DNA from: Thamnocephalis sphaerospora
Taxonomy: Eukaryota; Zoopagomycota; Zoopagomycetes; Zoopagales; Sigmoideomycetaceae
Length of the DNA: 64,000 bases
Direction: 5' to 3'
Assembly (NCBI GenBank): GCA_003614735.1
Contig: KZ992425.1
Coordinates: forward strand, 1 to 64,000
In this document: positions 2,554 to 62,319 of the stretch, in pieces
Numbering within the stretch: the first letter of the stretch is position 1
How the letters are laid out: each line of letters starts with the position of its first letter
Position numbers and translations under genes: made by a program
The notes under the pieces: generated by a model
What the model was told of the DNA's origin: nothing
The model's input: only the letters and a program-made list of their open reading frames with translations
Database searches by the model: none

Positions 2554-2818
2554 GTTGGCGGAGCGTTGAACGCCTCGCGGCGGCGGAGAAGCGGCGGCGG
2601 CGCCGTGGAGCAGAAGCAACCGATAATGGCCCAGTGATGCGCCGACGGCAAGCGGCGTAGACAGTGGTGGCAGACAAGGACAACGAGAGGCAATAACAGA
2701 GACAAAAGGCAGGCCACGAAATGATGCTGCCTATTGTAGCCCAATCACGCCTTCTCACTCTCTCACATTCACTCTCTCTTCTCTCCTGATTCACGTCGAC
2801 GCGTGCGTGTATGCAGTC

Positions 2819-11614: not shown

Positions 11615-13424
11615 TTAGGCTTTGGCGTTGAGTTTTTCCTAGCAGAAAGCGGGGTGAGCACACGCACACATACACACACACACACACACCATCCGGCATC
11701 CTGCATCGTCGATCCACCTACCAGCGCGCGCGGGCCCATCTCCTCCCACTCCTGCCGCGTTACCCAGAAGCTGTCTCTGTCCTTCATGAGATCGGCAAGG
11801 ACGGCACCGCCCAGGAACACCATGTGTTTGCGACGTGGCGGATCCTCAATGTGTACCTTGAATTTCTGCGACATGCGCGGGCATCACCCTATGCATCAGC
11901 ATCTGACGACCCACTTTCTACACTCTGTATCGGCTGCCGCATACCTTGAGACGCTCAATGTCACCGTTGAGCGTGTGTGTCAGATACAGCTGCTTCACCT
12001 CCTTCTCCAGTCGGCTGGGCAGGCCTGGGTACATGGTCGAGCCACCCGAGAGCACAATGTGCTTGTAGAGATCCGCGCGAATGTCAATATCCGCCGACTG
12101 AATGGTGTTGTAGAGCAGCTCTGGAAAACATAGGCATTAGCGCGAGAACCGAGGGCATGCAATGCTAGCAACCGGAGCGTACCAGCCATGCCAGGCGACT
12201 CGACGTCGATCAACTCGGGCTGGAACAGGCACTCTGGCGCCTCAAAGCGCTCAGAGCCCACCTTGATCACACGGCCATCGGGAAGCTGGACGCAACAAAA
12301 GGGTAAGACGGCGGGCTAAACAGGATGGCAGCACGCAGACCAATCTACCGTGTAGTTCTCCACCAGCACCGTCGTCTCGTTGGCCAGCTTCTGATCCAGA
12401 CCCAGGTCGTAGCTAAGCAATATCCATCAGTCATCCGCCCTTTTGCGTGGCAGCACACGGTGCACCACACGCACCTGACATAGCAGAGCTTCTCCTTGAT
12501 CTGACGGATGGTCTCAAAGTCGGCAGTACGGTTGAACGCATAGCCGCGCAGCAGCAGCAGCTTGATAAGATAGCGCGTTACATCGCGACCGGCCACATCC
12601 AGGCGTCGTGTGACGTGCGGCATCGCGTAGCCATCGTACACCGGGACAATGTGCGTAACGCCGTCGCCAGAATCGATGACCACACCGGTGAGCAGACCTA
12701 ATAGCAGCAGCAGCAGCAGCAACGCACATAACATACACTTGATTAGCCACCACCACATACGTACACATCCCATGACCGCCACCATGTGCCATACCTTGCG
12801 CATACAGCGTAAGCACGGCCTGGATAGCTACGTATACGCCCTGAAAGCCGTACTCCTCAAACATCACTTCGGCCATCTTTTCCCGGTTCTTGAGCGGATT
12901 CATGGGCGGCTCGGTAAGCAGGATCTTTGCGTCTTTGGTATCCACCCGCAGCTTCTCATTGAACGTATAGTCCCAGACGTGGCGCATGTCCTCCCAGTTC
13001 TTAACGATGCCATTCTCCATGGGATACGACATTTGCAGGATGCTGCGCAGTGCCGCTGCTTCATCGCCCACCATGATATCCTTCACCTCCACGTTGCCGA
13101 TTTTTTCTTCGGCACGCAGAATCGGCCGGCCGACCACCGACGGAAAGACATACTCTGGAAAGTTGGAGCCGGCATAGCCGACCTTGGCAAACTATGGGGA
13201 AAACGTCAGTCTTGTTCGTGCACGCTGCGCCTGCCCTAGCCCGTTGCCAGGATGCAACAGAGCCGCCAGCGTCATCGCGCTTAGCCATCAGACGCCACTG
13301 GCTCCGCCATTTGGCTGCGTCCTGTCTGGCACTGCGCCAGCACGCAACACCGCTACACTGGCCCGCACCGTCTGCCACGTACCCCAGTGCCGTTGTCGAC
13401 AACCAGGGTTTTCGACGCGTCCAT
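11615..13424 (-). CDS. ARP2: Actin-related protein 2 (Arp2/3 complex subunit)
   Basis: Arp2 and Arp3 form the seed of branched actin filaments at endocytic patches. Eight exons (13424-13383, 13191-12795, 12697-12475, 12412-12349, 12285-12183, 12120-11945, 11865-11722, 11638-11615) sum to 1173 nt, exactly 390 residues, the family length. Diagnostic Arp2 text includes [94 protein letters not shown] and [20 protein letters not shown]. The last exon is only 24 nt and encodes EKLNAKA-stop, matching the usual EKLG-type end. It follows an intron filled with a TG/CA microsatellite. Reading through that intron would give a longer but nonsensical tail, so splicing is the better model. Confidence 0.95.
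11661..11691 (+). repeat. CA/TG microsatellite inside the last ARP2 intron
   Basis: A run of about 14 CA dinucleotides with two interruptions, lying inside the 83-nt final intron of ARP2, close to the acceptor of a 24-nt terminal exon. Length changes here could affect splicing. Confidence 0.8.
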
Positions 13425-23147: not shown

Positions 23148-26100
23148 ATGTGGTTCTCGCACGACTTGAGTGTCGTCCTACTTGCCGTGCAGGCGGCTGC
23201 TGTGGTCGGCCTGACGGTCAGCGTGGCGCAATTCTGGCAGAAGCGCGAGCATCTTGTCGTGCGCCTGACCAGCTTGGCTGCACTGCTTGATCTTGCCTAT
23301 GCTGGCACCGTGTTGCTCGGTGAGCTTTCCGAGCTGCGCGCGCTGTCCGCATCGGCCGCCGGCCTGGACACCGGCCTCAGCGCTGCATCCTGCCGCAACA
23401 ACCATGGCATGCGCCTGGTCCTCTGGGCGGCCAGTATGGCGTACACCGCATTCCTGGCGGTGCACGCGCAGCGCTTTGCCGCCGATCCGTCGCACGCTCG
23501 TCCATCGCTGTCCAAGCGCACCGCGCTTACCGGTTTTGGCTGGACGGCCGCTGCTGCCGGCACCACGCTTGCTCTCTGGTCGACCCGCGATTGGTGGCAG
23601 GCACTGACGCTCGACAGCCAAGGACGTGCTGTTGCCTGTCGTCCGGAGCCGGCCGCTGAGCGCCCAACGCACGCCATCATTGGCATGCTCGCTCTGGCCG
23701 CGTGGGCCTTTGTGGCAGTCCGTGCTGTGCGCAGCCTGCCCGTGATCCGCTCGCTTGCCGGCCAGATTGTCGCCAAGGACGCGCAGGTCTCGCTGCTGCA
23801 GCGCTTCAAGCTGCGTCTGACCATGCTGCCGTTCGTCTACACCGCCGTGGCCCTCTGGTACCCACTTCACAATCTGGCAGTTGCCGCCACCGGTCACGAG
23901 GATGCTTCTGGCCTGTTTGCCTATGCCGCGCACTTTTCCGCGCAGGCCTGGTCAGTCTTCTTTGCCGCCTACTATCTCTGGCTTCTGCGCTGGCTGCCAA
24001 GCGACCGCGCTCTCTACGCCGCCGAGTCAGTCTCGGTCAAGGTCGACTTGGCTACGCCGATCGCCGACACTGTGACTGCGGTTCACGCCAGCGAGTCTAG
24101 CATGCACGAGTCCGCCAGTCTGCGCAACCGCCATGCCAAGACAGCCGGTCGCGGTCTCACCGAGTCTGACATTGCTGCTGCAGTGCGCAGCGTCGCTGAG
24201 GCTCGCCGTTCCGGCACCGTCACTCCGATCGAAGGCATGGTTGCCGATGAGAGCCTCTCGCAGGTGAGGGAGTGTGTGGACGGTCTGCTTTCTGCCTTTT
24301 CCAGCTGGGAGAACTTGCAGCAAGCTCGCAGCAGTGCCCTCTATGTTCAACCGCGCGCTCGTCGTGCCAGCGAAAGCCTGTCGACTGTATCTGACCTTCT
24401 GACCGCGGATCTCACCTGGTCTGATGCGGGCTGTGATGCACTTGCGCAGTTGTATGCGCCGGTAGCGCCCGTCGAGGTTGTCGCCTTTCCGCTTTCCAAC
24501 GACTCGGACGAGGAGAAGGGCAAGGGTGGTTTTTTGAGTCGTTTCTGGGGCAGCAGCAGCAAGTCGTCCAAAAAGTCCAAGGAGACCAAGCCAGCCGCTG
24601 CGCCAGCGCCAGCGCCAGTGCCTGCACCCGCACCTGCACCCGCACCCGCACCGGCGCCGGTCGCCAACATTCCCGCTGACGTGGGTCCTAGCGAGTCTCG
24701 CAAGGCTGAAAAGGCGCCGGCCTCTGACGAGGACGAGAGCATCATTGGCCATGTGGCTCACGAAGCCGTCGAAGGTGTGTCCTCTGCCGTGCACCGTGTC
24801 GAGTCCTGGTTCTTTGGCAAGCCAAAGAAGAAGGGACGTGCTATTGATGACGAGTCATCTGTTGCTACTGGCTTGGCCAAGGCTACTACCATGCGGTCCG
24901 ATGCAGAGAAGCCGGTCGGCGTGATGGTGGTTCGTTCTGGGCGTCGCTTCATCCGTCGCACGTACACAGTCTACAACTCGTCTTCCAGCAAGATTGAGGA
25001 GGCCGAGCTGGAGCTACTTGTCGATGGGCTGACCGAGGCTAGCAGCCGTGCCACCATCAAGTCGTCGGGCATCAACACCACGCACAAGGGCCGCCGCTTC
25101 ATCAAGTATGCCATCGCTCGCTGGGACGTGCGTACCGGCCAGCTGATTCACGACACGCTGCGAGTTGCCGCCGAGGATGTCGATTCGGCCATCAACGAGG
25201 CAGCGCGCGTTTCCGCTCAAGTGGCCATCCGCAATGGCCGCCGGTTTATCCGCCGCGTCCTCACCCGCTGGGATGCCGCCACACACAAGGCCGTGCAGGA
25301 GCCGGCCGAACTGGCTGCCGACGATGTTGCCCAGGCTGCCGGCGAGATTGCTGGCTCGTACAGCATTGTGGTGCGCGATGGTCGTCGATTTGTCCGCCGC
25401 ATCTACACTCGTTGGGACCTGCGCACCAACGCAGTTGCTCATGACAAGCTCGAGTATGCACATGACGATCTCAAGCTGGCCGACGTTGAGGCTGCCAGCA
25501 CGGCTGCAATCATCATTGTACGCAGCGGTCGTCGCCTGATCCGTCGTTCGTTCATCCGCTGGGATGAGTCCACGCAGTCCATCTCGCGCGATGCCATTGA
25601 GCTTGCTGCTGATGACGTGCAGCGCGCTATTTCAGCAGCTTCGGAAGCCAAGGCCGTCGTCGTGCGTAACGGCCGTCGCTTTGTGCGTTCGCAGTTCTAC
25701 TACTGGGACACGCGCACCTGCCGTATCGTGTTGGGTGAGCTGATCGTGTCCGCCGAGGATCTGCAGCAGGCAAGCAGCGAAATTGCCACTGTATCGGCCG
25801 TATCGGTTGTGCGCAGCGGCCGCCGTTACATCCGCCGTGTCTTCACATTCTGGGATACTGCAGCTGGCTGCGAGAATCGTCGCGTGGGCGAGATGGCTGC
25901 CGACGAAGTGGCCGCCGCCGCCGCCGAGTCTTCGGGCAAGGCGCCGGTGAGCAGCAGTAGCAGCATCGTTGTTCACAACGGCCGTCGCTTCCTGCGCCGT
26001 ATCATCACCCGTTGGGATGTACAGACCAACAAGGCTGTGCAGGAGCACATTGAGGTGGCTGCTGATGACCTGCAGAATGCTCATGCCGCCAACAGCATCT

Positions 26101-29100
26101 CCTATTCTGTGATTGTGCGCCAGACCCGTCGCTTCGTCCGCCGTTTCTTCACACGCTGGGACGCCAAGCACGAGCGTTTCATCGATCAAGAGCTGGAGAT
26201 TGACGAGCAGGAACTGCGTAACGCTGCTGCGGCATCCATCAACGGTTACGCTGCTTCCCGCATTGTGGTCCGCCGCAACAAGCGCATGCTTCGCTACGCC
26301 TTCACCCGCTGGAGCACCACACGTAGCCGACCGATCGAGGAGGAGCTTGAGATTCTGGCGGACGATGTCGAGAACGCCGGTACTCTGGCTGCAAACCCAA
26401 CCTTCTCTGCCAGCGTGCTTTTGCGCAACAGCGTGCGATTTGTACGTCGCTATGTCTACATCTGGAACGAGAAGACCAGCAGCGCTGAGCGCGTTACGCT
26501 GCACGTCATGGAGAAGGAGGATGATTCTGACGACGACTCTTCGCTCAAGGCTGCTCAGGAGGGCGGTGTGGAGCGCGACGGTCGTCTGTATATCCGCCGC
26601 ATGGCACTGCGCTGGGATGAGCAGAGTGGCACTGAGCGTCAGGAAGTTGTTGAGATTCACATTGCCGACACTTCCAGTCTCCTCAAGATGTCCTTTGCCG
26701 AGATTGCTCGCTCTGTGCGCATCGTTGTGCGTGGCAACCGCCGTTATGTCCGCCGTTTGTTTACGCGCTGGGATGTGCAGCAGAAGCGTCTTGTACAAGA
26801 TGAGATCGAGCTGGCTGCTGACGAGCTGGAGCAGTCGACCGCACTCATCCACGCCTCGACGCTGGTGTTGATCCGCGAGGAGCGTCGCTTCGTTCGTCGC
26901 ATCTTCACTCGTTGGGACGTGCATCTCCGCACAATTGTGCGCGAGGAGATCGAGTTTGCCGTTGACGATCTTGAAGAGGCTGCTGAGCTGGCACGCAGTG
27001 AGCTGTACTCCAACCAGCACGAGCACATCATCCTGCGTGGTGGCCAGCGCTTTGTGCAGTATACTATTCGCCGCTGGTGCGAGAAGACCAACAGCATTGT
27101 CACGTCTGAGGTCGATATTTCCGTCGAGGACATTGACAGTGCTGTGCAGTACTCTCGCCAGGTTAAGGTGATTCTTGTGTTCCGCGAAAACCGGCGCTTC
27201 GTTCGCTACCTCTTCACACGCTGGTGTCACATTACGAACACCAGCGTACAGGAGAGCATTGAAGTCGACGCGGACGAGGTAATTCAGGGCGCCAGCCGCA
27301 GCACATTTGCCGCCTCTGCCGCCGTTTCCGCTGCTGTCGTACCGGCCAAGGGCACTATCGTCATTCGTCGCGGTCGCCGCTATGTCAAGCGCACCTTCAC
27401 CGTCTTCTATCCGGGCACCGCTCAGCCTGTCCAGAAGGAGATTGAGGTTGCTGCTGACGATGTTGAGACGGCTGCTTGCACCAGTGAGGCCGACGACAGC
27501 AGTGTAGTCGTGCGCGATGATGGCAAAAAGTACATTGTTCGCCGTTTCAAGCGCTGGGATGCTCAGCAGGATCGTGAAGTTGAGGAAGAGATCCAGGTGG
27601 ACGCCGCTGAACTCAAGAGCGCGCGCACACTTTCGGTGAACGTGTCTGCTTCCATTGTCATTCGTCATGGCCGTCGCTTTGTTCGTCGTCTGATGCGCTT
27701 CTGGGATGCACACCAGAAGAAGACGGTCAAGCGGGTGGTTGAGATTGCAGAGGATGACGTCATCCATGGAGCTGAAGAGACCACCAAGGCCACCAGCCGC
27801 ATTGTTGTCCGCAACACTCGCCGTTACATTGTACGTCGCTACATCCGCTGGGACGAAATTCAGCAAAAGACCGTTGAGGATGAAGTCGAGGTTGATGCCG
27901 AGGATCTACAGCTCGCCCAGGCTGAGGCTGCTACATGCGTCACTGCCGTAGTTATCCGCCACCATCGTCGCTATATTCTGCGTACTTTCACCTACTGGGA
28001 CCAGGCCGCTGGCAAGGAGGTCCAGAAGCAGGTTGAAGTCGCCGCCGAAGATTTGACCGAAGGCGGTTCGCCCGAGACGGTGGTTGAGCGTAATGGCCGC
28101 CGTTTCGTTCGTCGCATTGTCAAGCGCTGGTGCACTGTGGAGAACAAGGAGGTCGAGGAGGAGGTGGAGATTGCCGCCGACGACCTTGCCGAAGTTAGCA
28201 CTGAACTCGTCAAGTACGAGGCCAAATCTAGTGCTGCGCTAGCAGCTACCGCCAAGGCTGCCACTGAGTCTGCCGGTGTTGCCGTCCGTGAGGGCCGCCT
28301 GTTCGTCCGCCGTATCTTCACCTACTGGGACGTCGAGAAGAATGAGGAGGTCCAGAAGGAGGTGGAGGTCGCCGCCGACGAGGTCAAGGAGGCCACCAAG
28401 GTCGAGGCCGATTCCGAGACGATGGTCGAGCGCAATGGCCGCCGCTTCATCCGCCGTAAGTTCACCCGCTGGAGCGTCGAGGAGAACAAGGAGGTCGCCG
28501 AGGAGGTGGAGGTGGCCGCCGACGAGGTTCAGCAGGTGAACGAGGAGGTGGTCAAGGTCGAGGTCGAGACCACTGGCGCGCTTGCCAACGCCGGAGTCGC
28601 CGTCCGCGAGGGCCGCGTCTTCGTCCGCCGTGTGTTCACCTACTGGGACGCCGAGAAGAACGAGGAGGTCCAGAAGGAGGTGGAGGTCGCCGCCGAGGAA
28701 GTCAAGGAGGCCGCCGACACCGCCTGCGGCGCCGACTCTGAGGCTGTCGTTGTGCGCAATGGCCGCCGCTTCATCCGCCGCTACTTCACTCGCTGGAATG
28801 TCGAGACTGGCAAGACCGTGGCCGAGCAGGTCGAGGTCGCCGCCGACGATGTCCAGCAGGTGAAGGAGGAGGTTGTCAAGGTTGAGGCCGAGACCGGCTC
28901 CGTTCTGACCACGGCCGTCGCTGCCACCGCCGCGACCGCCACGGTCGCCGCTGCCGCCGCCACCGAGAGCGCAACCGTCGCCGTCCGCGAGGGCCGCCTG
29001 TTCGTCCGCCGTATGTTCACCTACTGGGACGCTGAGAAGAACGAGGAGGTCCAGAAGGAGGAGGAGGTTGCCGCCGATGAGGTCAAGGAGGCCGCCACGG

Positions 29101-32100
29101 TCGAGGCCGAAGCCGAGGCTGTTGTCGAGCGCAACGGTCGCCGCTTCATCCGCCGCAAGTTCACCCGCTGGAGCGTCGAGGAGAACAAGCAGGTGACCGA
29201 TGAGGTCGAGGTCGCCGTCGACTCTGTCCAGCAGGTCAACGAGGAGGTGACCAAGGTCGAGGCCGAGTCCAGCGGTATCCTGAGCACCGCCGTTGCCGCC
29301 ACGGCCGCAGCATCTTTGACCGGCGCTGCAGTGTATGGCGCGCTGCGGTCAAGTGCATCCGCATCTACACAGGCTCGTCCGCTTGTGCAGACTGACAGCG
29401 CGATTGGTGGTGTTGCTGATGCTGAAGGCGCTTGCGTCGAGAAGGAGCGTATTCCAGTTATTCACGAGGACTCCGCTACCACTGAGGTGCTGGTTGGTGC
29501 TGCCACCATGACTACATCGTCAGCGTGGACCGCAGATGTCAAGGTTCACCCGGCTCGCGCAGAGGCCAAATCCAATGTTGTGCTGCATTCTGGTCGCCGT
29601 TTCATTCGCCGCTACTTTGTGCGTTGGGATGAAGTCACGCAGACGACTGTGCGCGAAGAAGTTGAACTGGATGCCGAACAGCTCGAAAGCGCTGTGACCG
29701 ATGAGACATCTGTCGAGAAGGTCACGCGTGATGGAAAGACATTCATTCGTAAGGCCTTCGCCATCTGGGACAAGACGACGCAGTCCATCGTCGAGAAGGT
29801 GACCGAGATTGCATGTGATGACGTGCAGAACTCGGTTAGCGATGCTTCGGTTGATACGTCTGCTACAATCGTCATACGTGGTGGTCGTCGCTTTGTCCGG
29901 CGCGTGATTCTACGCTGGTCGGAGGTTGAGCAGCGTGAAGTAGAGGAGGAGATCGAAGTGGCAGCTGATACAGCGTCCGAGGAATCGATTGATGAGACGT
30001 CTGTTGTCATTCGCGGTGGTCGCCGTTTCTTCCGTCGCATGATCCGCCGCTGGGATGCCGTCCGTGAACAAGATGTCGACGATACGATTGAGGTTGATGC
30101 CGATGACTACCACGCCATTTGCTCTGTTGCCGCCACGTCCACCGCACTTTCAGCAGTATCCAAGGTTAGCGTTGATGGCCACACGTTCATCCGCCGCCTG
30201 GTTACCCGCTGGGATGAGGTGCAGCAGCGCGAGGTCAAGGAGGTTGTTCACATCGCATCTGGCCGCGACGAGTCGCTCGGCGAAGTATCCACCGTAGAGC
30301 GCAACGGTTGCCGCTATATCGTCCGCTACGTGCTGCGCTGGAATACCCTGGAGGGCACCACGCGTACCGAGGCTATTGAGGTGCCGGATGTTGCCGCCAA
30401 TCGCCCGGACAATCCGACTGTGAGCACGCTGATCACGGTTGTCCATGGTGGTCGCCGCTTCGTTCGTCGCACGATTGCGCTTTGGGATGCCGAGACCAGC
30501 ACAACCCGCTACGAGGAGCTGGATGTTGCTGCCGATGAGGAAGCATCTGCTGACGAGAGTACCGCAGCTGTCACTATCGTCCGCGATGGTCGCCGATTTG
30601 TCCGTCGCACCATCGTTGTCTGGTGCTTCAAGACATTCACTACCGTGACTCGCACCATTGAGTACGCCGTGGATAGCACCAGCGAATCTGGCCATGCACA
30701 CTTTGCTCTTCGTGCTCCTATGCACGTCTGCCGTGCGGATCGACGCTTTGTGCGCCGCGCCGTTCTTCGCTGGAACGTGCAAGCGCAGCAAGTGGTTCGT
30801 GAGGTAGTACATGTCGAGGTTGCCGCAAGCGATTTCACCGCCAACGAGTCGTCTGTCATCGTGCGCGATGGTCGTCGCTACGTTCTGTGGCAAATTCTCT
30901 ACTGGGATGAGCTGACTGGCGCCGAGCGCATCGAGTCGGTTGAGCTTGACCTGGAGGACGTCACGGCGCGCAAGCCTACTGATGACGTGACAACGGTTCG
31001 CCGCGCTGGCGTGCTGTTCATCCGTCGCACCATTCGCATTTGGATTGCCGCTGAGAGCCGCTTTATTGAGCGCACTGCGTTTGTGAATGCGACCGAGGAC
31101 GAGCACGCACTGGTTACCGTCCGCTTTGGCCGCCGCTTCGTTCGCCGTCTGATTCTCGGCTGGAACGAGCAGACCGGCGAGGAGTATGCGGAGATTGCTG
31201 AGGTCGAGGTTGAGGCCGAGACTGTGCACGAGGATGACGAGCCGTCAGACTCGGGTAGTGACTACGACTCTGCCGCCGACTCGGATGTGGATCAGCCAGG
31301 TGTTACCGCCAGCAAGGGTGGCAAGAAGCGTCGCAACAAGAAGCGCCGCAATAAGAAGCGCGGTGGTCAGCAGCAGCAGCAGCAGCAGACTACCCAGCTG
31401 GCTGTCGGCGCTGCTGTTGGCACTGCTGTCGCCGCCAGCGCCGTGGCCGTGGCTGCCCAGTCTGCCCAATCCGCCAGTCTTACCGTGGAGGCACCCGCGA
31501 CCGCTGCTCTTTCCGACGTGACCTACGAGTCCGAGTCCGAATCTGAGCTGGAGTCGGACGATGATGCGACGATAGGAAGCGTCAGCATGCTGGCCGATGA
31601 TGACAGTGAAGAGAGCGATCTCGAGTCCACTGAGGATGAGGAGGGTGTGGTGAAGGATATGTCGCCGGAGGCTGTTGCTGCGCGTGCCGAGCGCAAGGAG
31701 AAGCGCCTTCGGAAGAAGAAGCAGCACCGTCACAAGAAGCACCGGCCAAAGAAGGGCCGCCGCGCTGCTGAAGGTGGTAATGCAAAGAGCACCACCGAGA
31801 AAGCAGCAACGGGTGGCAAGAAGAGGCGTCGTCGTCAGCGCTCTCGTCGGCCGCAGCTGGACTCGGCTCCTGTGGCTGCAGCTCCATCGGTTCAGGTTAT
31901 TGCTGAGGAGCAGCATGTTTCCACAAGTGCGTCGAGCACCGCAGCTGCCGTTGGTGTTGCAGCAACTGGTGCCGCGATTGCTGCTGCCAGCACGGCCGCT
32001 ACTGTCAAGGCATCGACTGCCGAGGAGTTCCTGCGCGAACTGGATGGTGAGCCGCAGTCAGCGCCGTCGGTTGTGACCACAGATGCCGATACCTTCCTTC

Positions 32101-35015
32101 GCGAGCTAGATGCCGAGACTGCAAGCGCAAAGCAGACCGAGACGGTGCAGACGACCATCGAGGATGCTTCCAGCAGCACACACGAGTTTTCTGCTGTCGC
32201 TGGCATTGCTGCCGCTATTAGTGTCGGTGCCGCTGTCGCTGCCGGTGCCGCCATTGCTGTTGGTGCGTCGTCTTCCAAGACCGTGGATGCTGATACCTTC
32301 TTGGAAGAGCTCGAGGATAACCGCGCATGCAAGACCACCACTGCAACGGAGTCAAAGGTTGCTAGCACTACATCTGTTACGCGAGATGCTGAGCAGTTCC
32401 TTAGCGAGCTCGATGCCGATACCAAGGTGTCTACAACCGCGACCACCACTGTTGCAGTCGAGTCGCAGGCTACCGAAGCTTCGTACACCAGTCAGGCTAC
32501 TGCGCCTGCCCCTGCACCTGCACCTGCTGCGCCCGCCTCTGGTGACGTGACTATTGTTGGCCCGTCCGGTGGTGTTCAGGAGTTCACCGAAGAGAAGACC
32601 GATACCGATGGTGGCCATCTTTCCATCCGCACGGTGATCATCTCCGATACTCAGGTTCGCCAAATCACCCGCTACTTCACCAAGACGCTCAACGGTCAGG
32701 TGTCGCAGTGGATGACCCACGATGTGGAGCCGATTGTTGCCAAGGCTGAGGGTGAGACGTCTGCCGCCGGCTCCGTTTCCGTGTCTGCCGATGGCTCTGC
32801 TTCGATCGTTGGTGCATCTGGTAGCATCCAGACCGGCTCGCATGCCGCCCGCAGTGAGATCACTCAGGCCGCTGGTGCTGCGATCCAGTCGTCCGGTGTT
32901 ATTGGCCAGCAGACCGCCCAGGTTGCCGTTGAAGAGGTCAAGGAAGCTGAGGAAGTCGTTGGAGCGCCTGAGGAGACTACCGAGGAGACTACCGATGCCG
33001 CTGGTGCGCGCCTTGTGATCCGTACTGTTACCGTCCGCACTCGTTCGTGCCGCCGTGTCACCAAGTACTACAAGCGCACGCTAAATGGTGAGGTCACCGA
33101 ATGGTCGACGAACGAGGAGCTACCGCTGGAGACTGCTGCACCTGCCCCTGCGCCTGCTGCGCCCGCCTCTGGTGACGTGACTATTGTTGGCCCGTCCGGT
33201 GGTGTTCAGGAGTTCACCGAGGAGAAGACCGATACCGATGGTGGCCATCTTTCCATCCGCACGGTGATCATCTCCGATACTCAGGTTCGCCAAATCACCC
33301 GCTACTTCACCAAGACGCTCAACGGTCAGGTGTCGCAGTGGATGACCCACGATGTGGAGCCGATTGTTGCCAAGGCTGAGGGTGAGACGTCTGCCGCCGG
33401 CTCCGTTTCCGTATCTGCCGATGGCTCTGCTTCGATCGTTGGTGCATCTGGTAGCATCCAGACCGGCTCGCATGCCGCCCGCGGTGAGATCACTCAGGCC
33501 GCCGGTGCTGCGATCCAGTCGTCCGGTGTTATCGGTCAGACTGCCACTGCTGCCGCTACCGCTACTGCCGCGGCTGCCGGCCCTGTTCAAGAGTTTACCG
33601 AGGAGAAGACGGATACTGATGGTGGAAAGCTTGTCATCCGCACGGTTATCGTCGCCGACAGTCATGTTCGCCAAATCACCCGCTACTTCACCAAGACGCT
33701 CAACGGTCAAGTGTCGCAGTGGATGACCCACGATGTGGAGCGCCTGGAGAATGGTGTCTGGGTTGCCGTGCCTGCTGGCCCTGATGCGTCAGCACAGCAA
33801 GGTGCCGCCGGCGCGTCTAACGATGCAGCGCAGGAGACGACCGAGGAGACGACCGACACCGACGGCGGACACCTTGTCATCCGCACGGTTATCGTCGCCG
33901 ACAGTCATATTCGCCGCATCACCAAGTACTTTACCAAGACGCTGAATGGTCAAGTGTCGCAGTGGATGACCAGCGACGTGGAGCGCCTGGAGAATGGTGT
34001 TTGGGTTGCTGTGGCCGCCGGTTCCGATGCATCGGCACAGCAGGTTGCATTTGCTGACCAAGCTGCTGCTGCTGCGCAAGCGACCGTTGCCAGTCCCGTC
34101 CAGGAGACTACCGAGGAGACGACCGACACTGATGGTGGACATCTTGTCATCCGCACGGTTATCGTCGCCGACAGCCACACTCGCCGTATCACCAAGTACT
34201 TTACTAAGACGCTGAACGGCCAAGTTAGCCAGTGGATGACCAGTGATGCGGAACGCCTGGAAAATGGCGTCTGGGTTGCTGTGCCCGCCGGCTCTGCTGG
34301 TGCCGGTGCTACTGCCGAAGAGACTGCTGCTGCTGCTGCCGAGGCCGCCGCCGCTCATGCCGCCGCTCATGCCGCTGCCACCGAGGCCGCTGCCGCCGCT
34401 ACTGCCAACGCTGCCGCTGCTGCCGCTTCCGCCCAGGCCGCTGCTGCTACCCAAGCCGCTGCTGCTACCGCTACTGCTCAAGCCACTGCCGCTGCTTCTG
34501 GTGTTGCCACCTCTGCCTCTGCCCAAGCCCCCAACGTTGGCGATGCCTATCAAGAATCGACAGAGGAGAAGGTCGATGTCGACGGTGGTCGCCTGGTGAT
34601 TCGCACTGTTACCGTTACTAGTAGCCAGAGTCGTCGCATCACGCGCTACTTTACCAAGACGCTCAACGGCGCCGTTTCCGAGTGGTCTACCACCGAGGAG
34701 CAGCCGCTGGATGGTGCCGCCAATGCTGCCGCCCAGGCCGCCGCTGCCCAGGCCGTCAGCACCACGGTTACCACCAGCATCCAGCAGACCGGCCCTGTCG
34801 AAGTAGTGATTGGCGAGACTGTCGAGGAAATTGGCGACGCCATCGAGGAGGAGATCGAAGAGACGATCGAAGGCGATGGTACCCGCTTGATTGTACGCAC
34901 CGAGACGGTGACTAGCCAGACCACCCGTCGCATCACCAAGTACTATACCAAGATCGCGACGAACGGCGAGAAGAACGAGTGGCAGACTACCGAGGAGCAT
35001 CCGATCAGCGCCTAA
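23148..35015 (+). CDS. Giant 7TM protein with about 40 GRRF/RWD repeats and 8 C-terminal IRTV/YFTKTLNG repeats
   Basis: One uninterrupted frame of 3955 residues. Residues 1-290 form a seven-helix domain (TM1 8-28, TM2 36-58, TM3 88-107, TM4 126-144, TM5 176-194, TM6 229-247, TM7 265-283) with Cys82 before TM3 and Cys164 in the TM4-TM5 loop, as in GPCRs, and PTHAI at 173-177. Residues 290-590 are Ser/Lys/acidic linker with a PAPAPAP tract near 485-505. About 40 repeats follow at 592-2690, core VVRNGRRFVRRIFTRWD then VQEEIEVAADDV. Residues 2700-3140 hold acidic tracts, basic RNKKRRNKKR and RKKKQHRHKKHRPKK patches, poly-Gln, Ala/Gly-rich segments and four FLxEL motifs. Eight related repeats, core GGHLVIRTVIVADSHTRRIT then KYFTKTLNGQVSQWM, fill 3146-3955. 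If the topology is GPCR-like, all repeats are cytosolic. No family recognised. The start ATG (23148) follows ccgccATGt. Confidence 0.85.
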   Translation: MWFSHDLSVVLLAVQAAAVVGLTVSVAQFWQKREHLVVRLTSLAALLDLAYAGTVLLGELSELRALSASAAGLDTGLSAASCRNNHGMRLVLWAASMAYTAFLAVHAQRFAADPSHARPSLSKRTALTGFGWTAAAAGTTLALWSTRDWWQALTLDSQGRAVACRPEPAAERPTHAIIGMLALAAWAFVAVRAVRSLPVIRSLAGQIVAKDAQVSLLQRFKLRLTMLPFVYTAVALWYPLHNLAVAATGHEDASGLFAYAAHFSAQAWSVFFAAYYLWLLRWLPSDRALYAAESVSVKVDLATPIADTVTAVHASESSMHESASLRNRHAKTAGRGLTESDIAAAVRSVAEARRSGTVTPIEGMVADESLSQVRECVDGLLSAFSSWENLQQARSSALYVQPRARRASESLSTVSDLLTADLTWSDAGCDALAQLYAPVAPVEVVAFPLSNDSDEEKGKGGFLSRFWGSSSKSSKKSKETKPAAAPAPAPVPAPAPAPAPAPAPVANIPADVGPSESRKAEKAPASDEDESIIGHVAHEAVEGVSSAVHRVESWFFGKPKKKGRAIDDESSVATGLAKATTMRSDAEKPVGVMVVRSGRRFIRRTYTVYNSSSSKIEEAELELLVDGLTEASSRATIKSSGINTTHKGRRFIKYAIARWDVRTGQLIHDTLRVAAEDVDSAINEAARVSAQVAIRNGRRFIRRVLTRWDAATHKAVQEPAELAADDVAQAAGEIAGSYSIVVRDGRRFVRRIYTRWDLRTNAVAHDKLEYAHDDLKLADVEAASTAAIIIVRSGRRLIRRSFIRWDESTQSISRDAIELAADDVQRAISAASEAKAVVVRNGRRFVRSQFYYWDTRTCRIVLGELIVSAEDLQQASSEIATVSAVSVVRSGRRYIRRVFTFWDTAAGCENRRVGEMAADEVAAAAAESSGKAPVSSSSSIVVHNGRRFLRRIITRWDVQTNKAVQEHIEVAADDLQNAHAANSISYSVIVRQTRRFVRRFFTRWDAKHERFIDQELEIDEQELRNAAAASINGYAASRIVVRRNKRMLRYAFTRWSTTRSRPIEEELEILADDVENAGTLAANPTFSASVLLRNSVRFVRRYVYIWNEKTSSAERVTLHVMEKEDDSDDDSSLKAAQEGGVERDGRLYIRRMALRWDEQSGTERQEVVEIHIADTSSLLKMSFAEIARSVRIVVRGNRRYVRRLFTRWDVQQKRLVQDEIELAADELEQSTALIHASTLVLIREERRFVRRIFTRWDVHLRTIVREEIEFAVDDLEEAAELARSELYSNQHEHIILRGGQRFVQYTIRRWCEKTNSIVTSEVDISVEDIDSAVQYSRQVKVILVFRENRRFVRYLFTRWCHITNTSVQESIEVDADEVIQGASRSTFAASAAVSAAVVPAKGTIVIRRGRRYVKRTFTVFYPGTAQPVQKEIEVAADDVETAACTSEADDSSVVVRDDGKKYIVRRFKRWDAQQDREVEEEIQVDAAELKSARTLSVNVSASIVIRHGRRFVRRLMRFWDAHQKKTVKRVVEIAEDDVIHGAEETTKATSRIVVRNTRRYIVRRYIRWDEIQQKTVEDEVEVDAEDLQLAQAEAATCVTAVVIRHHRRYILRTFTYWDQAAGKEVQKQVEVAAEDLTEGGSPETVVERNGRRFVRRIVKRWCTVENKEVEEEVEIAADDLAEVSTELVKYEAKSSAALAATAKAATESAGVAVREGRLFVRRIFTYWDVEKNEEVQKEVEVAADEVKEATKVEADSETMVERNGRRFIRRKFTRWSVEENKEVAEEVEVAADEVQQVNEEVVKVEVETTGALANAGVAVREGRVFVRRVFTYWDAEKNEEVQKEVEVAAEEVKEAADTACGADSEAVVVRNGRRFIRRYFTRWNVETGKTVAEQVEVAADDVQQVKEEVVKVEAETGSVLTTAVAATAATATVAAAAATESATVAVREGRLFVRRMFTYWDAEKNEEVQKEEEVAADEVKEAATVEAEAEAVVERNGRRFIRRKFTRWSVEENKQVTDEVEVAVDSVQQVNEEVTKVEAESSGILSTAVAATAAASLTGAAVYGALRSSASASTQARPLVQTDSAIGGVADAEGACVEKERIPVIHEDSATTEVLVGAATMTTSSAWTADVKVHPARAEAKSNVVLHSGRRFIRRYFVRWDEVTQTTVREEVELDAEQLESAVTDETSVEKVTRDGKTFIRKAFAIWDKTTQSIVEKVTEIACDDVQNSVSDASVDTSATIVIRGGRRFVRRVILRWSEVEQREVEEEIEVAADTASEESIDETSVVIRGGRRFFRRMIRRWDAVREQDVDDTIEVDADDYHAICSVAATSTALSAVSKVSVDGHTFIRRLVTRWDEVQQREVKEVVHIASGRDESLGEVSTVERNGCRYIVRYVLRWNTLEGTTRTEAIEVPDVAANRPDNPTVSTLITVVHGGRRFVRRTIALWDAETSTTRYEELDVAADEEASADESTAAVTIVRDGRRFVRRTIVVWCFKTFTTVTRTIEYAVDSTSESGHAHFALRAPMHVCRADRRFVRRAVLRWNVQAQQVVREVVHVEVAASDFTANESSVIVRDGRRYVLWQILYWDELTGAERIESVELDLEDVTARKPTDDVTTVRRAGVLFIRRTIRIWIAAESRFIERTAFVNATEDEHALVTVRFGRRFVRRLILGWNEQTGEEYAEIAEVEVEAETVHEDDEPSDSGSDYDSAADSDVDQPGVTASKGGKKRRNKKRRNKKRGGQQQQQQQTTQLAVGAAVGTAVAASAVAVAAQSAQSASLTVEAPATAALSDVTYESESESELESDDDATIGSVSMLADDDSEESDLESTEDEEGVVKDMSPEAVAARAERKEKRLRKKKQHRHKKHRPKKGRRAAEGGNAKSTTEKAATGGKKRRRRQRSRRPQLDSAPVAAAPSVQVIAEEQHVSTSASSTAAAVGVAATGAAIAAASTAATVKASTAEEFLRELDGEPQSAPSVVTTDADTFLRELDAETASAKQTETVQTTIEDASSSTHEFSAVAGIAAAISVGAAVAAGAAIAVGASSSKTVDADTFLEELEDNRACKTTTATESKVASTTSVTRDAEQFLSELDADTKVSTTATTTVAVESQATEASYTSQATAPAPAPAPAAPASGDVTIVGPSGGVQEFTEEKTDTDGGHLSIRTVIISDTQVRQITRYFTKTLNGQVSQWMTHDVEPIVAKAEGETSAAGSVSVSADGSASIVGASGSIQTGSHAARSEITQAAGAAIQSSGVIGQQTAQVAVEEVKEAEEVVGAPEETTEETTDAAGARLVIRTVTVRTRSCRRVTKYYKRTLNGEVTEWSTNEELPLETAAPAPAPAAPASGDVTIVGPSGGVQEFTEEKTDTDGGHLSIRTVIISDTQVRQITRYFTKTLNGQVSQWMTHDVEPIVAKAEGETSAAGSVSVSADGSASIVGASGSIQTGSHAARGEITQAAGAAIQSSGVIGQTATAAATATAAAAGPVQEFTEEKTDTDGGKLVIRTVIVADSHVRQITRYFTKTLNGQVSQWMTHDVERLENGVWVAVPAGPDASAQQGAAGASNDAAQETTEETTDTDGGHLVIRTVIVADSHIRRITKYFTKTLNGQVSQWMTSDVERLENGVWVAVAAGSDASAQQVAFADQAAAAAQATVASPVQETTEETTDTDGGHLVIRTVIVADSHTRRITKYFTKTLNGQVSQWMTSDAERLENGVWVAVPAGSAGAGATAEETAAAAAEAAAAHAAAHAAATEAAAAATANAAAAAASAQAAAATQAAAATATAQATAAASGVATSASAQAPNVGDAYQESTEEKVDVDGGRLVIRTVTVTSSQSRRITRYFTKTLNGAVSEWSTTEEQPLDGAANAAAQAAAAQAVSTTVTTSIQQTGPVEVVIGETVEEIGDAIEEEIEETIEGDGTRLIVRTETVTSQTTRRITKYYTKIATNGEKNEWQTTEEHPISA
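24921..31230 (+). repeat. Coding tandem repeat array, type A (about 40 units of ~52 codons)
   Basis: Units are recognised by G-R-R-[FY]-[IV]-R-R followed about five residues later by R-W-[DSNC], then by an acidic half ending in E-x-A-A-D-[DE]-[VL]. Spacing averages about 52 residues, with insertions in some linkers. Most units keep the first Arg pair and the Trp; units 11, 12, 15, 18, 30, 33 and 39 are divergent. Each unit looks like two beta-strands with alternating basic residues, then an acidic strand and short helix, so one unit's basic face could pair with the next unit's acidic face (inference). Confidence 0.85.
28270..29280 (+). repeat. Recently expanded two-unit super-repeat within the type A array
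   Basis: Units 23-28 alternate between two subtypes. The odd ones read VREGRLFVRRxFTYWD with EKNEEVQKEVEVAADEVKEA. The even ones read RNGRRFIRRxFTRW with EVEVAADxVQQVxEEV. Three such pairs follow each other, starting near 28277, 28599 and 28979, with much closer similarity than elsewhere in the array. This points to recent duplication of a two-unit block. Confidence 0.75.
31365..31387 (+). repeat. Poly-Gln coding CAG run
   Basis: Seven CAG codons in a row inside the giant gene, directly after the basic RNKKRRNKKRGG patch in the linker between the two repeat arrays. Confidence 0.85.
32529..33538 (+). repeat. Near-identical 630-bp-offset duplication (about 380 bp per copy)
   Basis: The text from gcgcccgcctctggtgacg at about 32529 through tccggtgttat at about 32902 recurs 630 bp downstream (from about 33159), with only a few mostly synonymous changes. 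The offset equals 210 codons, so the frame is kept. It is a recent duplication or is homogenised by gene conversion. Confidence 0.85.
32529..35012 (+). repeat. Coding tandem repeat array, type B (8 units)
   Basis: Eight units share E-E-x-T-D-x-D-G-G-x-L-x-I-R-T-V, then R-R-I-T-[KR]-Y-F-T-K-T-L-N-G-x-V-S-x-W. Units d, e and f add RLENGVWVAV. Linkers are Ala/Thr-rich, including a stretch of about 70 almost pure Ala/Thr residues near 34320-34530. The RR-I-T-x-Y-F-T...V-x-x-W order resembles RRF-I-R-R-x-F-T-R-W of type A, suggesting common origin (inference). Confidence 0.85.
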
Positions 35016-35408: not shown

Positions 35409-38400
35409 ATGCCGTTCGCGGGCGTGTACCGCGCCACCTATGACTATGCCGGACAGGAGGAGGACGAGTTGAACCTTAAGCAGGATGAAGTATTTTTTGT
35501 TCTGGACAAAGATGACGAAGATTGGTGGCGAGTGAAGCGGAAGGACACGGAGGAAGTCGGTGTGGTACCGAGCTCTTATCTTGAGGAAGTAAGTCCACGC
35601 GAACCGGCAGTCATGAACCAAGCTGCACGCACAGGACTGACGGCGCACTCTGCGCCGGCCACGCTTAGCTGGTGCCATCGGCTAAAGTACAGGCCAACTT
35701 TGCCTACGAAGCCACCAATGACGAGGAGGTTACCATGGCGGAGGATGACGTGCTGGAAGTGCTGGATGCCGAGGATCCCGAATGGATATTGGTTCGGCTA
35801 GAAAACCAGATTGGCTTTGTGCCTACAAGCTACGTCCAGTCGGTAGGCACACACTTGGGCACAGGCTCACCATATACGATGCATACTTATGTCGTATGTC
35901 TACAATGGCATTACCTGCATAACAGATTGAAGACGACGCACACAACGAGGAGAACGAAGACGCCGAAGAGCTTATTGCCGAGACGCCAGTGGTAGGATTG
36001 TCGCCGCTTAAACCACCATGATTGCGCTAACCACGGCTATTTCTCCAGCCTACCGTTGCGGTCACGCAGGCTACATCTGCCACAAAGCAACGGCCAAAGC
36101 TGATTTTGGATGATATTCAGTACTGGGACGTGTCGGTAGGTGACTGCAACGCCACAAAGTCGTGCAACTGCGATGGTCTGACATGGCCAAACGCTCGTTA
36201 TCAGGAAATGGAGAAGAAGAAGAAAAAGAAGAAGGGCCGTCTTGGTATTGGAAATGGCCTAGTGTTTTACGCCAGCAAAACAGACAAGGTTGGCACAGCG
36301 ATTGCGCGCGCACAACCATGGTACCTAAACTCAACGCAGACCAACGCAACTCTACGGGATAGACACCGGTGCAACAGTGGACAGTTTCAGACGTCCAGTC
36401 GTACCAGCACGACGGTAAACAGGTGCAGCTGGACATTGGTGGCGACCATCCGGCCAAATTCACGTTTCACGTTGGGAGCAAGGCGCATGGCGAAGCAATT
36501 GCGGAAAAGATTGCTAAAGGCCAGCGCTTGGCTCGTGAAGCACAGGTGAGCAAACCGATGTCTACGTGCATTTTAGACATGCACATCAGGTGGCATCTGT
36601 GAGTGGACTGGCTTGAGCTGACATATTTTCAGGCCGATGATGCGACCGGCGTGGATGCGGATGCGCGTGCCCCTGCATTGCCCACCCTGACAATACCCAA
36701 AGTCCAGCCTGTTGCCGCTGCCTTGCCTACGACGCCCATTGCAGAGCCTGTCTATGCTGTTGCTGCTTTTGACTTTGAGGCAGCAGAGGAGGGTGAGCTC
36801 ACAGTGCGTGAAGGCGAACAGGTGCTTGTACTGGACCCAGTACCCGACGAGGAGTGGTGGCAGTGTTCCATCATCGACGCCGATGGCACCGAGCGGCGGG
36901 GTGTTGTGCCAGCCAGCTATTTGCAGGTGAGCAACTATATGGCCTTGCGTTGAGAGCACTTGGTATGCTGATACATCGTCACTTTATCAGTCACCATCAG
37001 ATGTTGTGATGGCTAGTGAGCCGAGTGTTGCAGAGCCCGCCGTAACCGCGCCAGCGCCTGCGCAACCTGCTCCGCCGTTGCCGTCAACTTTAGAATCATC
37101 GGCTAGCGTGTCAGCTCCGCCGCCGCCACCGCCACCGCCACCGCCTCCCCCTCCACCAGCATCTAGCGCAGAGCCCTCGGTTAGTGTGTCGACCCCTCCG
37201 CCACCTCTCCCGCCGCCGCCACCGCCACCACCCCCTCCTCCGCCACCGCCTGTACAACCTCCCGCCGTTATCACCGCTGCCACCGCTCCGGTGCCGGTGG
37301 TAGCACAAACAGTTAGCGATGCATCGACACACCAGGCAACTGCAGTAGCGGTATTTGATTTTATTCCGGAAAATGAGGACGAACTGGAACTTAAGGAAGG
37401 CGACCGAGTGGCCATCTTGCACGCGGAGAGTGGTGAAGAGTGGTGGCACTGCAAACTGCTCAGCGGGCCTAATGTAGGAAGGGACGGCGCAGTGCCTGCA
37501 AACTATCTGCAGTTGGTGGACGATGCGATTGCTGGTATTGCCGAAACTTCAAGCGTGGCAGCGGACGAAAAGCAGCTTCGTGCGAAGCGTGCAGAAGAAG
37601 AAAAGCGTATTGCCGCTGAACAAATTGCTCTTCGGCGTCAGGCAGAGGAGGAGGATGAGCGCCGTCGTGAGGCGGACCGTGAAGTCCGCAGCCAGCGTAT
37701 GGCTGCTGCTGCTGCTGCTGCCATGCCAGCGCCACCGTCAGAAACGCCACCACCACCGCCGCCGCCACCGGCAGCCCCGCTAGCCGCGCGGGCTCCGCTA
37801 GCCCCTCCAGCGCCTATTGCACCCATCCAAAGAGCACCAAGCCCGTCAAAGGCTGCAAAGAGCAAATCCAGTGAGTTTCAATGCTTATCAAGTGTATACA
37901 AAACGCACTGATCTTGTTGCTAAATCATGCGCCGTACTTTAGAGTCTTTACCCAAGGACACGCGTACTTGGATGGATCGCACCGGTAACTTCCAGGTAAA
38001 AGCAGAGTTTCTCAAGCTTGAAGATGGCAAAGTTCATCTGCACAAGGAGAACGGAATCAAAATTGCCGTGCCACTGGATAAGCTTAGCCAGGCGGATGCC
38101 GACTTTGTGGAGCAAAAACTGGGCAAGTTGCCAGGACGTCCAAGCTCGCCATCCTCGACACAGACTGCATCAAATGCCGCTACACCTACCGTTGTAGCGG
38201 CTGCAGCTGCCAAAGCTCCTCCGGCAAAGCCTGCTGTCCACCCTTATGAAGCAAGGCCGTACAATCGTGACTTTGACTGGTTCAGCTTTTTCTTTACGGC
38301 CGGTGTAGGCGAGGCAGACGCATTCCGGTATGCAAAGACGTTTACGCATGAACGCCTGGACGACAGCGTTCTGCCGGATATTACGCCGGATATGCTAAAG

Positions 38401-51968: not shown

Positions 51969-54900
51969 TTATGCGCCACCGATCGACTTGGACGTCTGGC
52001 CATTGCGGCGAGCGCTGCGTTGATCGCGTAGGATCCGCACTAGCTGATCCCACTCGGCCGTATGAATGCGCGCCATCTCCTCTGCCTCACGCCTCTGCCT
52101 TTCACCAAGTTCGATCAGGCTCGGGTCGTTGATGTCCAGGTCGTTCAGCTCATCATCCCCCCATTGCATGTCGGGCGCTGAAGAGCGTGGCGACAAGTGG
52201 TCCGGATGCGGCGGCGATATGGGCGGCCCATGCGTCGGGCTTGTAAGCGGCAGCGGGATGAGCGGCGTGGTTGTCCCGATCATCGGTGGCGACGAAATAC
52301 CGGTGGCCAAGGGCGCGGCCGGGTCGGCCAGTGCCGGATCAACCGTGACGCCGATGCCCGCGGTTGATGGGGCACGCGCTACGAGCACTTCGGCAAACAC
52401 GGGTGCTTGCGCGTGTTCACTAGCAGGCACACCGGGTGATTTGGCCGGTTTGACCAAGCCGTCTTCGCCTAAACGCGGTGAGCCAAAAAGCGGCGACCCA
52501 AGGGATGTGTTGCCGGTGGCTGCCGTGCTACCAGCCGTCAACTCGCCATGGTCACTGCGCGGGGACGAACCGGTAGACTGACCAAGCATAGTGCCAATTG
52601 TGGTAGATGGCCCGGACTGCGCGCGCTTCCGAGAATGTGCAGCAGCAGCAGCGGCGGCGGCAACAGCTGCTGGAGAGGACACATAGCCTGGGGCCGACCC
52701 AACGCCAACAAAGTGCGACGCTGGTACCGACGCGCGACGTGGACTTTGCGCCGTTAGAGCATCCCGATAGTCGACAAACGACTCGCCAGGCCTGGTCACG
52801 GGGGCAGCCATGCCACGGCCCAAGCCATAAGCATGTGGATCGTAGTAGCGCTGCGTGTGCGGATCGCTCGGATACATGCACGAATGTGCCATGATGGGCG
52901 GTGCAAAGTCACTCGAGTCGCTTAGAGATGCAGGAATTGCCGTTGCTAGCCCTTGCTGACTGTAGAACGACTGCTGCTGCTGCTGCTGCTGTGCCGCCAC
53001 CATGGTCGCTCTCGATCCTGGCGATGAGCCAGGGGCCGGATAGGCCTGTGCAGCGTTCACATAAGAGTACAGCAGAGGTGCGGCACCTGATGAGGCTGAA
53101 CGCCGATGGCCAAGCGGAACGTTTTGCGGCAGAGATGTAGCCAGTCCTGGACTATGGGCGACCGGGGAACCGGGCATGGGCGCATCCATGATGGAATGGC
53201 CCTGTGACATGCGCTGTTGGTGATGTGCAATGTACACAGGCGACGTTGGCGCATGCTGAAGAGTATGTCGAGCCAGCGGTATGCACATCTCGTCCTGGCT
53301 ACGGCCGGAGCTAAGACCAGAACCGCTGCGCCTTATACCCGCTATCATCATGCTAGCCGACTGAGGGCCGCTATCGTTTGAGCTAACCGACCCAATGGCC
53401 GTGTTGATGACCAGCTCCGAGGTGGCCAACACGCGGGACACCGTCTGCCGAATATTGCGTACTGCCAGGTTGCGGTCTGCCTCATCGAGAACCTCTTCAC
53501 GTACCATTTCATCAACCACGTCTTCCGGTGTGTCTTGGTCTAGCACAAACGGAAACTTTACGCACTTTGGCTTGACGTCACCGGCGCGTCGCTGAGTCAT
53601 TTTTAGAAGCAGCGTACCGCCTTCCTGACGCTTCACCAGATCCACCTGGCCATGCTGTGCCGGTTGCGCCATTAAGGGCGTGCTGGCCGCCGTACTTGTT
53701 GCCGTGCTGCTAATGAACATTCCATCGGCGTGCATACGCGCATAGTCGTTCGGCTGCAAATGGGCTGGAGCTGCAGCTGCCGGAGGCATTACCTGACGGA
53801 GTGTGGTCGGCGCACTGAGCGTCGCCGAGTCTACCATGGTGCCCTGAATGCCAAGCAGCTGGCTGGAGTGCGAGTGCTCTATACCAACCGGCGTCGCAAG
53901 TCTAGCCAGCTGGGCGGCATCCAGCGAACTGGTCCGATGCAAGTCTAGAGGAAGCATTGGCACGCCAGGTCCGGACAGTACGGCGCCAGGTGTGCCGGCA
54001 GGCATGGTGCTACCAGAATTGCCTAGATTGGCCGTTAGCAGTCCGGCCGATAGCGCGCTTTTGCCTCCAGTTGGCTGGCGCAGCAAGTCCAGGCTGGTGT
54101 CTACGCTGGCCGTACCTAGAAGCACGCCCGCACCTACGGATGAGCGACGATTCCCCAAAGTCACTGGCGCAATTTGCGCATCATGCTGTTGTGGTGGCAT
54201 ACCGGCATTTACCGGATCCATGGGCGGGGTGCCCTCTGCGGTAAGGAACGGATGATGCAGCAGCTCGGCGGCAGTCGGACGTTCTTCTGGGTTAAAGCGC
54301 AGGCACGCCTCGATCAGCTCGCGCAATGGACCTTGCTCGATCTTGTCTAGTGCCAGCGGCTTGATACCGTTGGTGACCTTTTTGTAAATCTGCGCCTGAT
54401 TGGTGCACTCGCTGTACGGGTAGTCCTTGGTGACCATCTCCAGCACGCACATGCCGAATGCATACACGTCTACCTTTTCATCGTACTTTTCGTCGTAAAG
54501 CTCAGGTGCCATAAACTCGGGCGTGCCAATGACCGAGGTGACGTGCCGCAGCGGCTTCACCGTGGCCAAGCCTAGATCGCCCAACTTCACTTCACCCGTG
54601 TTGCCGTTGACGAATATGTTTTCGCACTTGAGATCGCGGTGAATGACTGGCGGATGGCAGTTGTGCAGGTAAGAAAGGCCGCTGAGTACCTGTCGGCAGA
54701 TGAGCTTGAGAAATTTCGGGCGGATTCCACCGGACGTTTTGCGCAGATAGCGCTTGAGCGTGCCCGAAGTCATCAGCTCGGTGACAAAATAGACAGTCTC
54801 GCCGCCGTTGGCAGCGGGCGCAGTCCACGCGTAATAAAGCCGAATAACGTTGGGATGGCGAAGGGCGCTGAGCAGTGTCACCTCGGAACGCAGCTTGCCG

Positions 54901-62174: not shown

Positions 62175-62282
62175 ATGTTGACCTCGCCTGCTCTCAGCTC
62201 TGCTACTGTGGCCGAGCTGGACCGCTCTTCGCTGCCACTGACTGCCTGGCTGCAACATACTCAATCGCAGCAACAGCAGCAG

Positions 62283-62319
<37 letters not shown>

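Follow-up and report, generated by a model that had tools for sequence, protein, structure and literature searches.

The locus studied here, in the genome of the zoopagalean fungus Thamnocephalis sphaerospora, raises the question of whether a receptor-like membrane head and two long arrays of repeats are encoded as one protein, and what such a protein would do. The window, i.e. the whole stretch of DNA that was analysed, comprised 64,000 nucleotides and lies on contig 2 of an assembly of 14.46 Mb in 594 contigs. In the initial annotation the locus was described as one unbroken frame of 3955 codons with about 48 repeats in two arrays, and both descriptions were confirmed. The frame begins with ATG and contains no internal stop (ln P = -124.5 for an open frame of this length arising by chance, given the local base composition); the repeats number 48, made up of 40 A units and 8 B units.

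Organization of the reading frame

From the N to the C terminus the protein consists of a seven-helix head ending near residue 291, linker 1, the 40 units of array A (residues 592-2695), linker 2, and the 8 units of array B, which runs to the C terminus; the tail comprises about 3,600 amino acids (Table 1). At the DNA level the architecture, with head and repeats in one frame, is well supported. The predicted start is probably right, since the initial residues MWFS are common to the annotated relatives from Syncephalis pseudoplumigaleata and S. fuscata. Several long frames are also present on the opposite strand (e.g. 25632-27866), and these were taken as shadows because the relatives match the sense frame and the repeat copies differ chiefly at its third codon positions.

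Comparison of the whole protein with Pfam gave nothing above cut-off, and the four sub-threshold matches (WYL_2, DciA, N_NLPC_P60, and Paramyx_P_V_C; E 0.056-0.16) were taken as chance. Comparison with PDB sequences gave four matches (best E 0.051), none of which was adopted. No paralogue of the head was found elsewhere in the 14.46 Mb assembly, in which residues 1-451 matched their own locus only (E <= 0.001, best candidates scored).

Table 1. Features of the giant gene and neighbouring genes in the window
Feature	Position	Strand	Remarks
BCS1 N-terminal domain gene	2627-3751	+	
Actin-family exon	12514-13191	-	
Giant frame	23148-35015	+	3955 codons, about 431 kDa, pI 5.4
Seven-helix GPCR-fold head (predicted)	23148-24020	+	residues 1-291; structure prediction and conserved residues
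Linker 1	24048-24917	+	residues 301-590; conserved stretches in relatives
Array A	24921-31232	+	40 units, 41-residue core, predicted beta-beta-beta-alpha
Units 23-28, two-unit block present three times	28275-29240	+	closest copies among those compared in array A
Polybasic stretch KKRRNKKRRNKKR in linker 2	31323-31361	+	JGI protein P0003 is also polybasic at the corresponding place
Ala/Val-rich hydrophobic stretch, possible membrane helix	31398-31466	+	residues 2751-2773
Ala-rich hydrophobic stretch	31941-32009	+	residues 2932-2954
Span with four copies of [DE]xFLxEL[DE], linker 2	32022-32414	+	copies from residues 2959, 2981, 3049, 3082
Ala/Val-rich hydrophobic stretch	32205-32273	+	residues 3020-3042
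Duplicated 134-residue block, copy 1 holding B1	32508-32909	+	copy 2, 33138-33539, holds B3
Array B	32586-35012	+	8 units, about 54 residues
SH3 protein, downstream of giant frame	36931-37911	+	
OSR1-like protein kinase	51969-55202	-	
bHLH protein	62124-63746	+	

Relatives in the Zoopagales

Three relatives were identified, each spanning only part of the window protein: SYNPS1DRAFT_27006 of S. pseudoplumigaleata (P0002), BDF19DRAFT_416908 of S. fuscata (P0004), and a JGI protein (P0003). All three are annotated as hypothetical, and no described family was found to match head and repeats together. The relatives point to the Zoopagales, an order of mycoparasitic fungi. Residues 1-1031 of P0002 are collinear with window positions 23148-26114 at 48% identity, which takes in the head, linker 1, and units 1-8, and P0003 is 38% identical to residues 2089-2865 of the window protein, a region made up of units 29-40 and part of linker 2. 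Identity of the head to that of the window protein is 54% in S. fuscata and 52% in S. pseudoplumigaleata, and 73% between those two, so that the window protein probably comes from a zoopagalean lineage outside this pair. None of the 10 candidates for the head among viral contigs was confirmed.

Residues 1105-1766 of P0002 match window positions 28235-26238 on the minus strand at 33% identity and are thus an antisense reading of the repeat array. This inverted stretch may be an amplification or assembly artefact of the record; the S. pseudoplumigaleata assembly was obtained from a single cell (PMC6784888).

The fusion of head and arrays claimed in the initial annotation holds for the single frame of the window and, as far as unit 8, for S. 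pseudoplumigaleata, but the annotated S. fuscata protein (564 residues) stops in linker 1, most of which it includes. That protein would suit a scheme in which head and repeats act separately, whether by splicing or alternative ends, by cleavage within linker 1, or because the two parts are encoded by different genes in some species. Consistent with this, no array protein from S. fuscata emerged from two array searches, which took in proteins of about 605-1925 and 2175-6900 residues and scored the best word-sharing candidates. Read in its own frame, however, the end of P0004 shows no alignment with the relatives. When its last 15 positions were read in another frame, the best match was the collinear P0002 linker, with a score of 10.9 (300 shuffles: mean 3.1, maximum 11.9). 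The end therefore fits a frame shift, which probably arose in the record or gene model, and the S. fuscata gene may continue into the array. With the fused frame of P0002 and the lack of any stop between the two parts in the window also against it, separate action was considered quite improbable.

The seven-helix head

Helices were predicted at residues 5-31, 36-70, 79-112, 123-146, 172-207, 214-248 (in three pieces), and 255-280, followed by a short helix at 286-291, and a strand pair (152-155/161-165) was placed between helices 4 and 5. The prediction was based on an alignment of 3 sequences and gave five models with mean pLDDT from 75 to 49. All 50 matches listed in a structure search of the predicted head against the PDB were GPCRs. 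The only cysteines in residues 1-300, Cys82 and Cys164, are invariant in all three head sequences (window and two Syncephalis) and sit at the usual places of the GPCR disulfide, the start of TM3 and extracellular loop 2. The receptor-like head of the initial annotation is supported by this predicted fold, in which seven helices are modelled in a GPCR arrangement.

At the end of helix 3 the window protein has Q-R-F and the two relatives have Q-R-Y, where class A has D/E-R-Y. The class A motif NPxxY is absent from TM7, which reads AWSVFFAAYYLWLLRWLP, without NP. No Pfam 7TM family was among the matches listed for the head (3 sequences, E up to 10; the HMMER filters remove most of those with E over about 0.1), and the giant-frame locus was not among the matches returned when the T. 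sphaerospora genome was searched with PF00001 (7tm_1). The loop charges lean towards an N terminus outside and a C terminus inside; the stretch following helix 7 lacks a basic character (3 K+R, 4 D+E).

Structure and identity of the A units

The consensus of array A is xxVxRxGRRFVRRxxxRWDxxxxxxVxxxxEVAADxxxxAx. Its anchor is Trp in 38 of 40 units and Tyr or Phe in the remaining two, and an HMM trained on these same units finds 40 domains. Anchor spacing is 40-58 residues in 35 of 39 cases and longer in four (61, 66, 77, and 152). Counted from the anchor, Arg is found at -13 in 34/40 units and Glu at +13 in 31/40, while positions -8, -7, -3, and +14 are hydrophobic in every unit; the commonest residue is Arg at -13, -10, -9, -6, and -5, and Glu at +13. 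The statement that Arg, Trp, and acidic positions are kept was thereby borne out.

Structure prediction of consecutive units, which had been proposed as a check, was performed on three of them and gave a repeated strand-strand-strand-helix order with a pLDDT of 83 and a pTM of 0.61; the mutual arrangement of the units is uncertain because of the lower pTM. The units had been called beta-rich, and strands were indeed modelled, but each unit also has a helix, so that a beta-beta-beta-alpha unit is predicted from the three. From the order of the strands, the Arg strand may pair with the Glu strand.

No confident match of the modelled units was found among PDB structures, and a profile of A stretches had no match among PDB sequences at E up to 10. 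Thirteen A stretches (twelve of three units, one of two) gave nothing above cut-off in Pfam. Below cut-off, TetR_C_16 was matched by 6 of 13, N_NLPC_P60 by 2 of 13 (best E 0.0021), and 19 other families by one each. TetR_C_16 (best E 1.2e-4, below its own cut-off) was rejected because the match is a 27-residue fragment of a presumably helical family, whereas the model shows strands there. NCBIfam likewise gave sub-cut-off matches only, mostly to holo-ACP synthase (best E 0.0021). No A paralogue was found at other loci of the assembly, all 10 matches lying within the giant gene (best candidates scored), and none of 8 pattern matches of an A stretch in prokaryote genome contigs was confirmed by a method that reaches close relatives only.

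It is highly improbable that the A units bind nucleic acids as domains of the PC4/Pur-alpha type on a membrane anchor. In a comparison made with two PC4 sequences, hhalign gave PC4 a probability of 0.05 percent against the A profile, and PC4 is missing from the Pfam families listed for the A stretches; a PC4 identity was rejected on these grounds. A search of the T. sphaerospora genome for PC4 itself found none, which introns and assembly gaps could explain.

Repeat evolution and selection

The best match of a relative's unit in the window was the unit at the same position for all 8 units of P0002 and for 9 of 12 units of P0003, the same-position unit ranking 2, 4, and 5 in the other three. 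At least 20 units therefore probably predate the split of the lineages. The sense-strand relatives cover units 1-8 and 29-40 and leave units 9-28 uncovered. Units 23-28 and the block shared by B1 and B3 are recent local duplications; in the latter, 393 of 402 bases are identical and 8 of the 9 differences are synonymous.

Values of dN were below dS in all 6 pairs of recent A copies and in all 21 pairs of B1-B7 (B8 unscored). Over all A pairs pN was below pS in 722 of 780, with synonymous differences high (mean pS 0.645). Purifying selection on the repeat copies is strongly supported by these comparisons, and the selection on protein proposed in the initial annotation agrees both with them and with the position-by-position unit matches in two proteins; on both counts the repeats are not low-complexity noise.

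An elastic or spacer tether, in which the chain of beads acts mechanically between the membrane and the distant cell interior with little dependence on the precise unit count, would account for tandem small folds with variable linkers and for the recent duplications. It was nevertheless judged improbable, as the units keep their individual identity at matching positions in the relatives, which a pure spacer would not need, and no known elastic repeat family was matched in Pfam or by the PDB sequence profile.

Linkers, array B, and sidedness of the tail

In linker 1, RGLTExDIA and QVRECVDGLL are conserved in both Syncephalis relatives, and GGFLSRFWG..SKSSKKSK is similar in both; HRVESWFFGKPKKKGR is similar in S. 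pseudoplumigaleata only, the S. fuscata protein ending upstream of it.

The consensus of array B is TEEKTDTDGGHLVIRTVIV..RRITRYFTKTLNGQVSQWMTxD, with 13 invariant columns. The two arrays of the initial annotation stand as such, but they appear to belong to different families by profile comparison: hhalign could align no more than one column of A with B, at a probability of 1.1%. A weak likeness of array B to Rhs repeats was seen (E 0.041 over 33 columns), and neither the Rhs nor the YD family is among the 2 Pfam families listed for the 8 B units. Three of five B matches in the assembly lie inside the giant gene, and the two others are weak (E 0.12 and 2.1; best candidates scored).

Because linker 2 carries three hydrophobic stretches, to which the initial annotation did not refer, a cytoplasmic location of the whole tail is a presumption, and array B could lie elsewhere. 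If these Ala-rich stretches were membrane helices, the tail would cross the membrane again, and an odd number of crossings would put array B outside, giving a receptor with an exposed repeat domain, perhaps for contact with the host fungus. The 440 residues of linker 2, which also has acidic stretches, contain three Kyte-Doolittle peaks (2.04, 1.56, and 2.24), whereas 300 shuffles averaged 0.07 peaks and never gave more than 1. Two such peaks occur in P0003, at 665 and 868 (1.92 and 2.03), in the part corresponding to linker 2, and in both proteins the first stretch follows a polybasic and precedes an acidic stretch. Rough insertion scores of 1.14-2.28, on an approximate membrane-insertion scale, fall within the range of the head helices (0.24-4.24). 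The stretches are, however, rich in Ala and Gly, residues that insert poorly, and the 6 hydrophobic peaks of the entire tail are usual in comparison with shuffles (mean 4.1, maximum 10). Three of these six (1388, 1919, and 2044) fall inside array A, where a simple recrossing scheme does not cover them. Recrossing was accordingly kept as a minor possibility.

Proposed function

With a probability of roughly 0.55, we regard the locus as a single-gene receptor of the Zoopagales in which a GPCR-fold head is joined to a multivalent cytosolic scaffold. The head would sit in the plasma membrane, its short N terminus facing outwards, and would sense an external cue and signal through heterotrimeric G proteins. 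Array A would be cytosolic, a string of small bead-like domains whose strands are rich in Arg or in Glu and which offers many near-equal putative binding sites. It could serve either as a scaffold that brings signalling or cortical partners to the receptor or as an anchor reaching far into the cytoplasm. The basic-aromatic patches of linker 1 may keep parts of the tail against the membrane.

At least two G-alpha genes, on contig 35, and 16 RGS matches were found in the T. sphaerospora genome, so that the means for G-protein signalling are present. Since G-alpha and RGS proteins are common in fungi, their presence is weak support for coupling of the head. Stops within two of the three longest G-alpha matches would fit introns. 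The two G-alpha genes (contig 35, 32067-33116 and 42259-43435) lie on opposite strands about 9 kb apart. Among the 8 of 16 RGS loci inspected, two (contigs 363 and 422) are in frames of 568 and 629 amino acids with six and five hydrophobic segments, and these are possibly 7TM-RGS proteins.

More tentatively, and with some doubt, the protein may represent a receptor architecture not described before and restricted to the Zoopagales, with a GPCR-fold sensor, a built-in scaffold of about 40 beads of a novel repeat fold, and an unrelated second array that is maybe carried to or through the membrane. If so, sensing and assembly (or host contact) would be combined in one molecule, in poorly studied fungi that live on other fungi. 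The A repeat is a candidate for a new fold, and this one protein supplies 40 natural variants of it. Genes of this kind are lost in annotation, as seen in one relative truncated in the linker and another running into an inverted stretch.

Comparison with known systems

The window protein resembles rhodopsin-like GPCRs in its seven predicted helices, the strand pair between helices 4 and 5, the paired cysteines, the short helix after TM7, and the Gln-Arg-Phe/Tyr near the end of helix 3 in its family. It differs from them in having no listed Pfam 7TM family, no NPxxY, and a tail of 3,600 residues, and we know of no longer GPCR tail. Outside the Dikarya, rhodopsin-like and cAMP-receptor-like GPCRs have been described from Chytridiomycota and Blastocladiomycota, with the motifs TM2 Asp, TM3 D/ERY, and loop cysteines (PMC3251606). 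These are likewise 7TM receptors; the window protein differs in lacking the NP of TM7, and no repeat tail is described in the available text of that paper, in which the term Zoopag is also absent.

A 7TM head with a C-terminal kinase-type domain is well known from GPCR-PIPK and GPCR-TKL/K proteins (PMC12716839). The window protein shares with them the 7TM part and C-terminal module on one chain and has instead 48 repeats, with no catalytic domain recognised. The initial annotation knew of no GPCR built in this way, and open-literature searches agree as far as they go: judged by titles and abstract openings, no description of a 7TM protein with such a tail was found, and the locus tags of the relatives occur in no paper found by tag prefixes or the name S. 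fuscata. 7TM proteins with C-terminal domains are already known, and what would be new, as far as searched, is a tail of such length built from two repeat families.

The long tail of GPR179 consists of short repeat motifs, not folded beads. GPR179 of the vertebrate retina forms complexes with RGS7 and RGS11 (PMC4412108), and its head belongs to the glutamate family (PMC12716839). It would be a functional analogue, a regulator-binding receptor with a long repeat-bearing tail. Whereas GPCRs usually borrow their scaffolds, the window protein appears to carry one as part of its own chain.
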